Part shown: piece by piece, positions 60,087-63,380 of the stretch
Layout of the letters: every line of letters starts with the position of its first letter
Position numbering within the stretch: position 1 is the stretch's first letter
NCBI RefSeq assembly: GCF_000382345.1
Contig: NZ_KB908097.1
Coordinates: forward strand, 1 to 64,000
Source of the DNA: Massilia niastensis DSM 21313
GTDB taxonomy: Bacteria; Pseudomonadota; Gammaproteobacteria; Burkholderiales; Burkholderiaceae_D
Reading direction: 5' to 3'
Length of the DNA stretch: 64,000 bases
Translations under genes and position numbers: made by a program
The notes under the pieces: model-generated
What the model saw: the letters and a program-made list of their open reading frames with translations, nothing else
The model's database searches: none
What the model was told of the DNA's origin: nothing

Positions 60087-60250
60087 GCGGAACCCTCTCG
60101 TGGAAAGATTGAAGCTTCAAGCAAATGTTGCGGCTCGCAGTGTAGCAAGTTCCAGTGGCCCCTGTAAAAGAGGAATGGGGTTGGCGAGCCTGCCTGCCCG
60201 GCCGTGCGCCACGACCGCAAAAATAATTGAAAAAATTTTGCTCCCCACCC

Positions 60251-60277
60251 TAAAGTTCCTGGAAAGCCCTCCGATAA
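60251..60277 (+). promoter_or_regulatory. Sigma-28 (FliA)-type promoter 1
   Basis: TAAAGTTC, 11 nt, TCCGATAA: 7 of 8 in each box and the exact spacing of the FliA consensus TAAAGTTT-N11-GCCGATAA. It reads toward flhD, about 406 nt upstream of the ATG. Confidence 0.75.
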
Positions 60278-60325
60278 CAGGTTCAGACGGGCGGAATCGG
60301 GTCGAAAATTTTTTTCAACAAACCC

Positions 60326-60352
60326 TAAAGTTCTCTTCCAGGCTTCCGATAA
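60326..60352 (+). promoter_or_regulatory. Sigma-28 (FliA)-type promoter 2
   Basis: A second identical-box copy, TAAAGTTC-N11-TCCGATAA, lies 75 nt after the first, within the tandem repeat, reading toward flhD. Confidence 0.75.
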
Positions 60353-60399
60353 CGGATGCACAAGGGCGCAAAAGGTGAGAAAAAAATTTCAAGAAACCC

Positions 60400-60426
60400 T
60401 AAAGTTCCCCTAAAGCATGACGTTAA
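60400..60426 (+). promoter_or_regulatory. Degenerate sigma-28-type promoter 3
   Basis: TAAAGTTC, 11 nt, GACGTTAA (6 of 8 in the -10). It sits at the same repeat phase as the other two, but the weaker -10 may make it inactive. Confidence 0.45.
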
Positions 60427-60682
60427 CCGTAGCAAGTTTGCGACAGGCAACATCAAGCGTGACTACAATCCAGGGCGTTTCTCCGACGCCGGCCATGACC
60501 TCCTCCTCATAGGGGAAACAGGGTGATCCGAGAGGGTTTGTCAGACAAACTCCTACGGGTCATGTCCGTCATGCGCGGACCGAAAATACAGACTTCGTCC
60601 GATTCCGGAAAAGTTTCCTCACGGTCAGAATCTATCTCAACGGCAATACAACTGGACGCCGATTCAACAACGGAGAGAGAAA

Positions 60683-61000
60683 ATGACTGCGAACGACATG
60701 ATGGCTGAAATTCGTGATGCTAACCTGAGCTACCTGATGCTCGCGCAGCAGATGATCCGCGCCGACAAGGTCACCGCAATCTTCCGCCTCGGTATCTCGG
60801 CCGACATCGCCGAGCTGATCGAAGGCATGAGCAATGCCCAGATCCTGAAGCTCGCCGGCGGCAACATGATGCTGGCCCGCTTCCGCTTCGACGACACCGC
60901 CATCCTGTCGATGCTGACCAGCCACAGCAAGGAGCGCAGCCTGGCCCAGTCGCATGCCGCCATCCTGATGGCCGGCCAGCCTGTTGAAGAGATCGTATAA
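60683..61000 (+). CDS. flhD: Flagellar master regulator subunit FlhD
   Basis: A 105-residue FlhD. MMAEIRDANLSYLMLAQQMIRADKVTA, then FRLGISADIAELIEGMSNAQ and RFDDTAILSMLTSHSKE match FlhD. With FlhC it forms the FlhD4C2 activator of class II flagellar genes via sigma-70. AGAGAGA precedes the ATG. The leader of nearly 600 bp holds three tandem FliA-type boxes, unusual for a class I gene. flhC follows after 54 nt. Confidence 0.97.
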   Translation: MTANDMMAEIRDANLSYLMLAQQMIRADKVTAIFRLGISADIAELIEGMSNAQILKLAGGNMMLARFRFDDTAILSMLTSHSKERSLAQSHAAILMAGQPVEEIV

Positions 61001-61054: not shown

Positions 61055-61606
61055 ATGAGCAAAAAAAGCGTCGTATCGGAAGCGCAGGAAATCCAGCTCG
61101 CCATCGAATTGATCAATCTCGGTGCGCGCCTGCAACTGCTGGAGACCGAAGTCTCGCTGTCGCGCGAACGCCTGCTCAAGCTGTACAAGGAACTCAAGGG
61201 TGTCTCTCCACCCAAGGGTATGCTGCCTTTCTCGACCGACTGGTTCCTGACCTGGCAACCGAACATCCATTCTTCGCTGTTCATCAATATCCATAACTTC
61301 CTGGTCGAGCACGCCGGCGCCACCGGCATCCAGGCCGTGATGAAGGCCTACAAGCTCTATCTCGAACAGATGCCGCCCGCTCCGGGCGAAGAACCATTGC
61401 TGTCCCTGACGCGCGCCTGGACACTGGTGCGTTTCTTCCAGGGCGGCATGCTGCAGCTGGCCCCATGCAACAAGTGCCAGGGCAAATTCGTCGTCAATAC
61501 CCTCGACCTGAACGCCGACTACCAGTGCGGCCTGTGCCACATGCCTTCGCGCGCGGGCAAGACCCGCAAGGCCAAGGATGCGGCGGCCAACCAGAATCCG
61601 GCCTGA
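61055..61606 (+). CDS. flhC: Flagellar master regulator subunit FlhC
   Basis: A 183-residue FlhC, the DNA-binding zinc partner of Flh[21 protein letters not shown] and [20 protein letters not shown] are family blocks; the four zinc-binding Cys appear as CNKC and CGLC near the C-terminus. The ATG at 61055 is chosen over the earlier open frame because [13 protein letters not shown] matches family starts and CCCGGAGCAGTCTC supplies GGAG. Confidence 0.97.
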
Positions 61607-61625: not shown

Positions 61626-62393
61626 ATGAGCCGGTTTTCGCGCATCCTGCGCGCTCCCGCGGTCCAGGCGCTGTTCCTCCAGTGCGCCAGCTTTCCCCTC
61701 ACCTTGGGCGCCGTGTACCTGGCGGCGCGCGCCGGCCTGGCGCTGGACTACCCCCATGCCGCGCTGGCGCAGGGGATCTTCGCGGCCGCGCTCACCTGGT
61801 GGCGCGGCCTGGCCGCGTGGTGGCGCGCGATCCAGTTCGTTTTTCCGCTCGCGCTGCTGGGCGCGCGCCAGGTCGCCATTCCGCCCGCCGTGTTCCTCGG
61901 CCTGTTCCTGTTCCTGCTGCTGCTGTACTGGTCGACCTTCCGCACCCAGGTGCCGTACTACCCGTCCGGGCGCAAGGTGTGGGAGGCGGTGGCGGCGCTG
62001 CTGCCGCAGGGCAGGGCGCTGGACGTGATCGACATCGGCAGCGGCCTCGGCGGGCTGGTGCTGGACCTGCAGCGCCGCCGTCCCGATGCGCGGATCACCG
62101 GCATCGAGCTGGCGCCGCTGCCCTGGCTGGCCAGCCGGCTGCGCGCGCAACTCGCCGGCAGCCCGGCCCGCTTCGTGCGTGGAGATTACGAATCCCTCGA
62201 TTTCGGCCATTTCGACGCCGTCTTCGCCTACCTGTCGCCGGCCGCGATGAGCGCGCTGTGGCGCAAGGCCGCGCACGAGATGCGCCCCGGATCGATGCTT
62301 CTTAGTTACGAATTTGGCATAAGGGAACGCACTCCCAGCCGCATTGTCCGTCCATACAAGGATGGCCCGGCGCTGTACGTTTGGGACTTTTAG
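61626..62393 (+). CDS. Membrane-anchored SAM-dependent methyltransferase
   Basis: A 255-residue protein with about three to four N-terminal transmembrane helices (AVQALFLQCASFPLTLGAVY; AIQFVFPLALLGARQ; VFLGLFLFLLLLYWSTF). They are joined to a class I methyltransferase domain (DVIDIGSGLGGLVLDLQ motif I; ITGIELAPLPWLASR; FDAVFAYLSP). It is 19 nt after flhC and 132 nt before motA, so it lies inside the flagellar regulon. It is not a known flagellar gene; its substrate may be a lipid or membrane protein. Confidence 0.87.
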   Translation: MSRFSRILRAPAVQALFLQCASFPLTLGAVYLAARAGLALDYPHAALAQGIFAAALTWWRGLAAWWRAIQFVFPLALLGARQVAIPPAVFLGLFLFLLLLYWSTFRTQVPYYPSGRKVWEAVAALLPQGRALDVIDIGSGLGGLVLDLQRRRPDARITGIELAPLPWLASRLRAQLAGSPARFVRGDYESLDFGHFDAVFAYLSPAAMSALWRKAAHEMRPGSMLLSYEFGIRERTPSRIVRPYKDGPALYVWDF

Positions 62394-62525
62394 GCGACAG
62401 ATCGGGCGGTTTTGCTTGCCCCTGAACCATTCTCCAGCTATTGTAGTTCCCTGCGTAAATATTTTCCTGAATCACTGTTTTTTGCCATGCCGGCATGCTC
62501 ATCCGGCATTTCTGGAGTCGGTTCC

Positions 62526-63380
62526 TTGTTAGTCATTATTGGTTACATCGTCGTCTGCGCCTCGGTGTTCGGCGGCTTCGTCATGAGTGGCGGCCACATG
62601 GGCTCGCTGTTCCAGCCGCTCGAACTGCTGATGATCGGCGGCGCGGCGGTCGGCGCCTTCTTCGTCGGTAACAATGCGAAATCGGTCAAGGCGACCATGA
62701 AGGCGCTGCCGACCGTGTTCAAGGGTTCCCAGTACACGCGCGACATGTACATGGAACTGATGGCGCTGCAGTTCGACGTGCTGTCCAAGGTCCGCAAGGA
62801 AGGCCTGATGTCGATCGAGGGCGATATCGAAGCGCCCGATGCGTCGCCGCTGTTCTCGAAATACCCGGCCGTGCTGGCCGACCACCACATCATCGAATTC
62901 ATGACCGACTACCTGCGCCTGATGGTGTCGGGGAACATGGATGCGTTCCAGATCGAGAACCTGATGGACAACGAGATCGAGACCCACCACCACGAGGGCG
63001 CGATTCCGGCCCACTGCATCGCCAAGCTGGGCGACGGCCTGCCGGCCTTCGGCATCGTGGCGGCGGTGATGGGCGTGGTCCACACCATGGAATCGGTGGG
63101 CCTGCCGCCGGCCGAGCTGGGCATCCTGATCGCCAAGGCGCTGGTCGGCACCTTCCTCGGCATCCTGCTGGCCTACGGCTTCGTCGGCCCGCTGGCCAGC
63201 GTGCTGGAACAGAAGCTGGAAGAGTCGACCAAGATGTTCCAGTGCGTGAAGGTCACCCTGCTGGCCAGCCTGAACGGCTACGCGCCGGCGCTGGCGGTCG
63301 AATTCGGCCGCAAGGTGCTGTACTCGACCGAGCGTCCGACCTTCGCCGAGCTCGAAGAGCACATCAAGAAGAAGAAATAA
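62526..63380 (+). CDS. motA: Flagellar motor stator protein MotA
   Basis: A 284-residue MotA with four membrane helices. TTG at 62526 is chosen: GGAG lies 8 nt upstream and LLVIIGYIVVCASVFGGFVMS matches the canonical MotA N-terminus, while the longer frame adds nonfamily residues. NEIETHHHEGAIPAHCIAKLGDGLPAFG and GTFLGILLAYGFVGPLA are intact cytoplasmic and proline regions. A hairpin (ATGCCGG with CCGGCAT) sits just before the ribosome site at 62487-62509. It forms the proton stator with MotB. Confidence 0.97.
   Translation: MLVIIGYIVVCASVFGGFVMSGGHMGSLFQPLELLMIGGAAVGAFFVGNNAKSVKATMKALPTVFKGSQYTRDMYMELMALQFDVLSKVRKEGLMSIEGDIEAPDASPLFSKYPAVLADHHIIEFMTDYLRLMVSGNMDAFQIENLMDNEIETHHHEGAIPAHCIAKLGDGLPAFGIVAAVMGVVHTMESVGLPPAELGILIAKALVGTFLGILLAYGFVGPLASVLEQKLEESTKMFQCVKVTLLASLNGYAPALAVEFGRKVLYSTERPTFAELEEHIKKKK

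Follow-up and report, generated by a model that had tools for sequence, protein, structure and literature searches.

In textbook accounts the flagellar cascade starts from the flhDC operon. The sigma-28 consensus, in turn, consists of a TAAAG-type -35 element, a CCGATAA-type -10 element and an 11-nt spacer, and it was also re-derived in this work from flgM promoters. The FliA class III promoters, such as those of flgM and fliC, have the -35 element, the -10 element and the 11-nt spacing in common with a group of boxes located in front of flhD in the Massilia genome described here. The flhD boxes differ from the class III promoters in that they precede the master operon and not late genes, are arranged in tandem, are accompanied by an A+T tract, and have a C at a position where the flgM boxes mostly have a T.

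Two other known systems are comparable with this arrangement. In the E. coli FliA map, a site inside flhC drives motAB-cheAW (PMC4183435). This promoter shares with the flhD boxes both the locus and the sigma factor; it is located downstream of flhD, whereas the Massilia boxes are located upstream and could raise FlhDC. In Salmonella and Xenorhabdus there is a known positive feedback on flhDC, or on FlhDC activity, that operates via FliZ (PMC5809477, PMC3814329). The likeness lies in the fact that a later-tier flagellar regulator acts back on the master regulator; the difference is that FliZ is a protein working at the flhDC promoter or via YdiV, while in the present case flhDC would be read by the sigma factor itself. 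A search of the open literature, with most subscription journals outside its scope, yielded no publication that describes FliA promoters in front of flhDC in Burkholderiales.

The boxes were found in the window, that is, the whole 64,000-nt stretch of DNA that was analysed, which corresponds to contig C22 of a 6.59 Mb genome; among named genomes, the best matches of its FlhC are from Massilia. Gene families were assigned by Pfam (FlhD, FlhC, MotA, MotB, FlgM, FliD, FliT and the CheA-type kinase, with PF00669 for the flagellins), and the remaining che gene names by reading the sequence. The features of the locus are the following:

60219..60239, + strand: A+T tract before box 1, from the sequence and the A+T profile; possibly UP-element-like, judging by its position
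60250..60277, + strand: FliA-type box 1, CTAAAGTTC-N11-TCCGATAA; exact pattern; flgM-matrix score 22.7
60305..60315, + strand: A+T tract before box 2, from the sequence and the A+T profile
60325..60352, + strand: FliA-type box 2, CTAAAGTTC-N11-TCCGATAA; exact pattern; flgM-matrix score 22.7
60380..60389, + strand: A+T tract before box 3, from the sequence and the A+T profile
60399..60426, + strand: FliA-type box 3, CTAAAGTTC-N11-GACGTTAA; flgM-matrix score 22.5
60440..60469, + strand: weak sigma-70-like site, GCGACA-18-TACAAT
60524..60562, + strand: inverted repeat or RNA hairpin of the flhDC leader; its core, GTTTGTCAGACAAAC, is a perfect inverted repeat at 60536-60550
60683..61000, + strand: flhD (Pfam FlhD, E 3e-44)
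61055..61606, + strand: flhC (Pfam FlhC, E 3.3e-87)
61626..62393, + strand: methyltransferase-domain gene between flhC and motA (Pfam Methyltransf_25, E 1.9e-8), present in 47 of 61 loci
62487..63380, + strand: motA (Pfam MotA_N, E 1.7e-35); the true start may be downstream of 62487

The tandem arrangement proposed in the initial annotation is confirmed, with all three boxes oriented toward flhD (ATG at 60683). The sequence TAAAGTTC-N11-TCCGATAA occurs without mismatch at 60251-60277 and again at 60326-60352. The third copy reads TAAAGTTC-N11-GACGTTAA and occupies 60400-60426 with the same spacer as the other two. The boxes start at 60250, 60325 and 60399, which gives intervals of 75 and 74, and the repeat finder reported a single three-copy family with units of 48 nt, spaced by the same 75 and 74 and 67-73% alike. 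The third copy had been called degenerate; its -10 element does differ from that of copies 1 and 2, but its core, ACGTTA, is also the core of the box that precedes the genome's own fliC.

Pattern searches, which covered the entire genome, were used together with reversed controls. The exact 16-base pattern matches only the two full copies in the 6.59 Mb. When up to three mismatches are allowed there are 18 matches in the genome against 13 for the reversed control, so that the loose matches have no meaning on their own. The pattern CTAAAG-N16-CGWTA is found exactly at six places in the whole genome, namely boxes 1-3, fliC (C9:28714), flgM (C30:51838) and a site on contig C7 (C7:30888), so that, by this pattern, three of the six exact sites are located before flhDC. 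If up to one mismatch is permitted, more matches are obtained for the reversed control (134) than for the pattern itself (28); at this level there are matches in front of fliT, fliD and a second flagellin, and many of the others are due to chance.

An additional line of evidence is provided by a score matrix trained on the flgM promoters of 26 out of 30 flgM loci, from which the flhD boxes were excluded; the other four loci were omitted, L164, L170 and L173 because they are truncated and L175 because its only box is weak. The three boxes score 22.5-22.7 with this matrix, while 2000 dinucleotide shuffles of the 900 bp that precede flhD gave a best score of 15.6 and no site of 22 or more. The scan of this genome comprised 328,301 bases on both strands and, since the stretches were picked mostly for their flagellar genes, it tests specificity and does not count the sites of the whole genome. 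Eight sites exceeded 14: flgM (31.4), C7:30888 (28.0), the flhD boxes (22.7, 22.7 and 22.5), fliT (20.6), fliC (20.0) and C30:60335 (17.7). The candidates before fliD and the second flagellin remained below 14 in the same scan. Sequence comparison also revealed that the flhD boxes resemble the flgM, fliC and fliT boxes of the same genome, and they contain the TAAAG-type -35, the CCGATAA-type -10 and the 11-nt spacer expected of a FliA promoter. There is thus a strong case, built on the DNA sequence, that the boxes upstream of flhD are FliA-type promoters, and this identity, already assigned in the initial annotation, agrees with their strand specificity.

The scan also drew attention to the box at C7:30888 (L144), a strong FliA-type site followed 359 bp further on by an ORF that matches Pfam DUF2282 (E 1.3e-20) and then by an ORF that, by eye, resembles DUF692.

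The flhD boxes have characteristics of their own. In 187 boxes from the relatives and the window, the A+T content at -20 to -11 before the box is 93-96%, compared with 52-61% in the same stretch of the 26 flgM boxes. The tracts are placed roughly where an UP element would lie and, given this position, they may play that role. At the ninth position of the box, 164 of 188 flhD boxes have a C and 23 of 26 flgM boxes have a T. Because the flhD boxes differ from those of flgM at this base and carry an A+T tract, another factor could act on them.

The initial annotation considered that a lack of the array in close relatives would speak against its proposal. Among named genomes 80 flhC loci were collected, of which 79 had enough upstream sequence (L050, with 292 bp upstream, was dropped), and a box was called when a site in the 900 bp before flhD scored at least 16. 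At least one box precedes flhD in all 79 of these relatives (Massilia, Duganella, Janthinobacterium and kin), with 180 boxes on the forward strand and none on the reverse, and with regard to conservation the proposal thus withstands this check. The number of boxes per locus is one in 3 loci, two in 54, three in 19 and four in 3; their spacing is mostly 73-79 or 84-130 bp, and their positions relative to flhD cluster near -285, -310, -360, -415 and -440. An alignment of 32 of the 80 relatives indicates that the sequence between the boxes diverges and the boxes are kept. When the pattern is allowed up to three mismatches, 76 of the 80 relatives have a match, and the 177 matches (window included), at least four of which are at unrelated places (L018, L020, L032 and L081), are all forward and none reverse. 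The conservation of the box score is partly selected by the scan itself, and the reverse-strand control is free of that bias. A chance origin of the boxes was also considered, and was ruled out by the shuffles, the matrix scan and the strand controls.

The search was extended to genomes of the same family, a set that overlaps with that of the named loci and is not independent of it. It consists of 66 genomes with FlhC minus G007 and L197 (189 bp upstream), which leaves 64 including this genome. A box was found in 46 of the 64, with 92 sites forward and 2 reverse; two of these 46 (L229 and L230) have their sole site at -60, outside the usual place. In a sample of the order, 42 of 120 genomes had a match and the scan took in 28 further loci, one of which (L327) comes from a family genome that had been included before; seven of the 28 have a box between -720 and -200. 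Two named flhDC copies, that of the Cupriavidus metallidurans megaplasmid and that of a 25-kb plasmid of Burkholderia glumae, have no flhD box above 14, and B. glumae has a site scoring 22.0 before motA. In the E. coli control, the matrix recovered the FliA promoter known to lie within flhC, and it found no site in front of flhD.

The distribution of the boxes was also examined on a tree of FlhC with 92 rows, of which 91 are different (G028 is in twice) and from which the family genomes G007, G020, G051, G071 and G074 are absent. A branch with support 95/92 divides the rows into a group of 56, of which 47 have boxes, and a group of 36, of which 3 have them. The box label requires 10 changes on the tree, compared with a mean of 30.8 when it is shuffled, and at least six changes are forced by the starred branches. 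An old gain followed by several losses would be the simplest account, although this is a reading and not a proof, because the tree has only a midpoint root, weak forks and a bootstrap that is not settled. Since 9 of the 56 rows in the box-rich group have no boxes, these elements are dispensable.

Downstream of the boxes, the leader contains a conserved block at approximately 60524-60640, in which the GTTTGTCAGACAAAC palindrome sits inside a two-part helix. The core pattern is present in 73 of 81 loci (the named ones plus the window). In the 64 family genomes it accompanies 28 of the 46 that have boxes and 2 of the 18 that do not, and in these 30 genomes it is located about 142-155 nt before flhD. 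In an alignment of 28 sequences, chosen by the author out of 81, 93.5% of the cells of the helix pair, changes on both sides number 29 against 8.1 in shuffles, and the covariation score is 0.282 against 0.148, a value that 0 of 500 shuffles reached, while the pairs with changes on both sides are five, a number equalled by 36 of the 500; all these figures are inflated by the fact that the structure was derived from the same alignment and that the sequences are related. The conserved element may act as a hairpin in the RNA or as an operator bound by a protein, and TNAGACAAACTCCTA within it resembles an RcsB-type box. Transcripts started at the boxes would carry this hairpin or inverted repeat. 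The block is also a better candidate for the class I control region than the site at 60440-60469. The latter had been proposed as a weak sigma-70 candidate, and GCGACA-18-TACAAT is indeed present there, but the pattern [GA]CGACA...CAAT could be traced at that place in just 8 of 80 relatives, and it was rejected as a sigma-70 promoter.

The elements observed directly are the boxes, their class III likeness, the conservation of their strand and position, the A+T tracts and the terminator-free leader of the window, and they support the proposal that, through the tandem sigma-28 promoters, flhDC probably receives additional transcription driven by FliA, so that class III would act back directly on class I. 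The box-free rows on the box-rich side of the tree speak against it, as does an excess of terminator-like sites over shuffles in the leaders of relatives. From them we infer that FliA uses the boxes, that the resulting mRNA is translated and that the effect is an amplifying one. Each module consists of an A+T tract (a possible UP element), the -35 element CCCTAAAGTTC and a -10 element, CCGATAA or ACGTTAA. In the order of events, which is borrowed from the enteric model for FlhDC, FliA and FlgM, FlhDC would turn on the class II genes, including fliA, and FlgM would hold FliA until the hook is finished. The freed FliA would then transcribe the class III genes and also flhDC, on top of the transcription coming from the class I promoter. 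FliA would in this way feed back directly and positively on flhDC, with hook completion, that is, the export of FlgM, as the gate.

Other explanations have to be weighed against this proposal. The boxes could be real FliA promoters whose purpose is the read-through of flhDC into motAB and che, with the extra FlhDC as a by-product. This is a serious rival because in this genome no FliA site above 11 is found from flhD to cheZ, and the genes that follow flhD on the same strand are flhC, the methyltransferase-domain gene, motA, motB, a gene of 182 aa (no Pfam match), a cheY-like gene, cheA, cheW, cheR, cheD, cheY and cheZ. It also agrees with the fact that in 36 of the 92 rows the flhD boxes are not accompanied by a box of 16 or more between flhC and motA, and that among the 75 named relatives in which motA was located none has a motA box of 16 or more (the best scores 9.2). 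Of the other rows, 9 have a motA box only, 25 have neither and 9 are not judgeable. However, the remaining 13 rows have both types of box, and for this reason read-through into motAB is not the sole reason for the flhD boxes. Furthermore, a transcript of about 11 kb would be needed to get to cheZ, and motA could have a sigma-70 promoter of its own, since in many aligned relatives a TTGCC-type and a TATTGT-type element, the second with variants such as TAATCT, can be recognised by eye about 17 nt apart before the gene. As the purpose of the boxes, read-through is considered unlikely.

The notion that the boxes generate a sigma-28-dependent leader or small RNA, which acts in trans or tunes flhDC, and not the flhDC mRNA, is quite unlikely. 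It is kept because sigma-28-dependent small RNAs are known in E. coli (PMC10578931), and the covarying hairpin of the leader would be compatible with it, as would an excess of terminator-like sites (24, all weak, in the leaders of 18 of 81 loci, against 8.7 in shuffles). A conserved terminator after a short transcript was nevertheless not found: on the + strand between the boxes and flhD the window has no terminator-like site, and, with the window included, 63 of the 81 loci have none. Half of the sites (12 of 24) borrow their T-rich tail from GTGTTTGT of the conserved palindrome, no Rfam match reaches its gathering score (one has an E of 0.59 on the other strand, with 22.6 bits against 50), and the sequence that separates box 3 from the hairpin shows poor conservation. 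Finally, the repeats might be operators of a regulator other than FliA whose resemblance to a sigma-28 promoter is due to chance, an explanation that would suit both the existence of a subtype (CCCTAAAGTTC with the A+T tract) and the distance of 73-130 bp between most successive copies; it is very unlikely, given that both half-boxes and the fixed spacing agree with the flgM promoters and that the fliT and fliC boxes of the same genome are close in sequence.

FliA-driven positive feedback on flhDC is the most likely reading. Because tandem sigma-28 promoters with UP-like tracts precede it, the master operon would also be a late gene, so that the export of FlgM would amplify FlhDC. It can be suggested, more tentatively, that in a large group of Burkholderiales a loop of this kind, in which hook completion amplifies FlhDC, might lock cells in a flagellated, bistable state, an extension that we regard as somewhat doubtful. 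If the reading is correct, the conserved FliA promoters before flhDC close the cascade directly into a loop in many bacteria, and a nearly finished flagellum helps to hold its own master switch on. The origin of flagellar commitment and bistability would then become testable by a few promoter deletions.

Some minor observations concern the region before motA and the sigma factor itself. A sigma-70-like pair, TTGCCC-N17-TATTGT, is located in the window at 62416-62444, before motA, and in some relatives a FliA-like CTCAAG...CGTAAA is found beside the sigma-70-like pair. The fliA gene of the genome (C30:39200-39862) is above the curated cut-off, and there is a second fliA match at C1:282857. The latter belongs to a region (G000:C1:262690-312690, L137-L139) that likely contains a second set of flagellar genes, served by a FliA-like sigma factor of its own, and in which flagellin-N matches were found in a frame of 306 aa (C1:300784) and in another of 309 aa (C1:270560).
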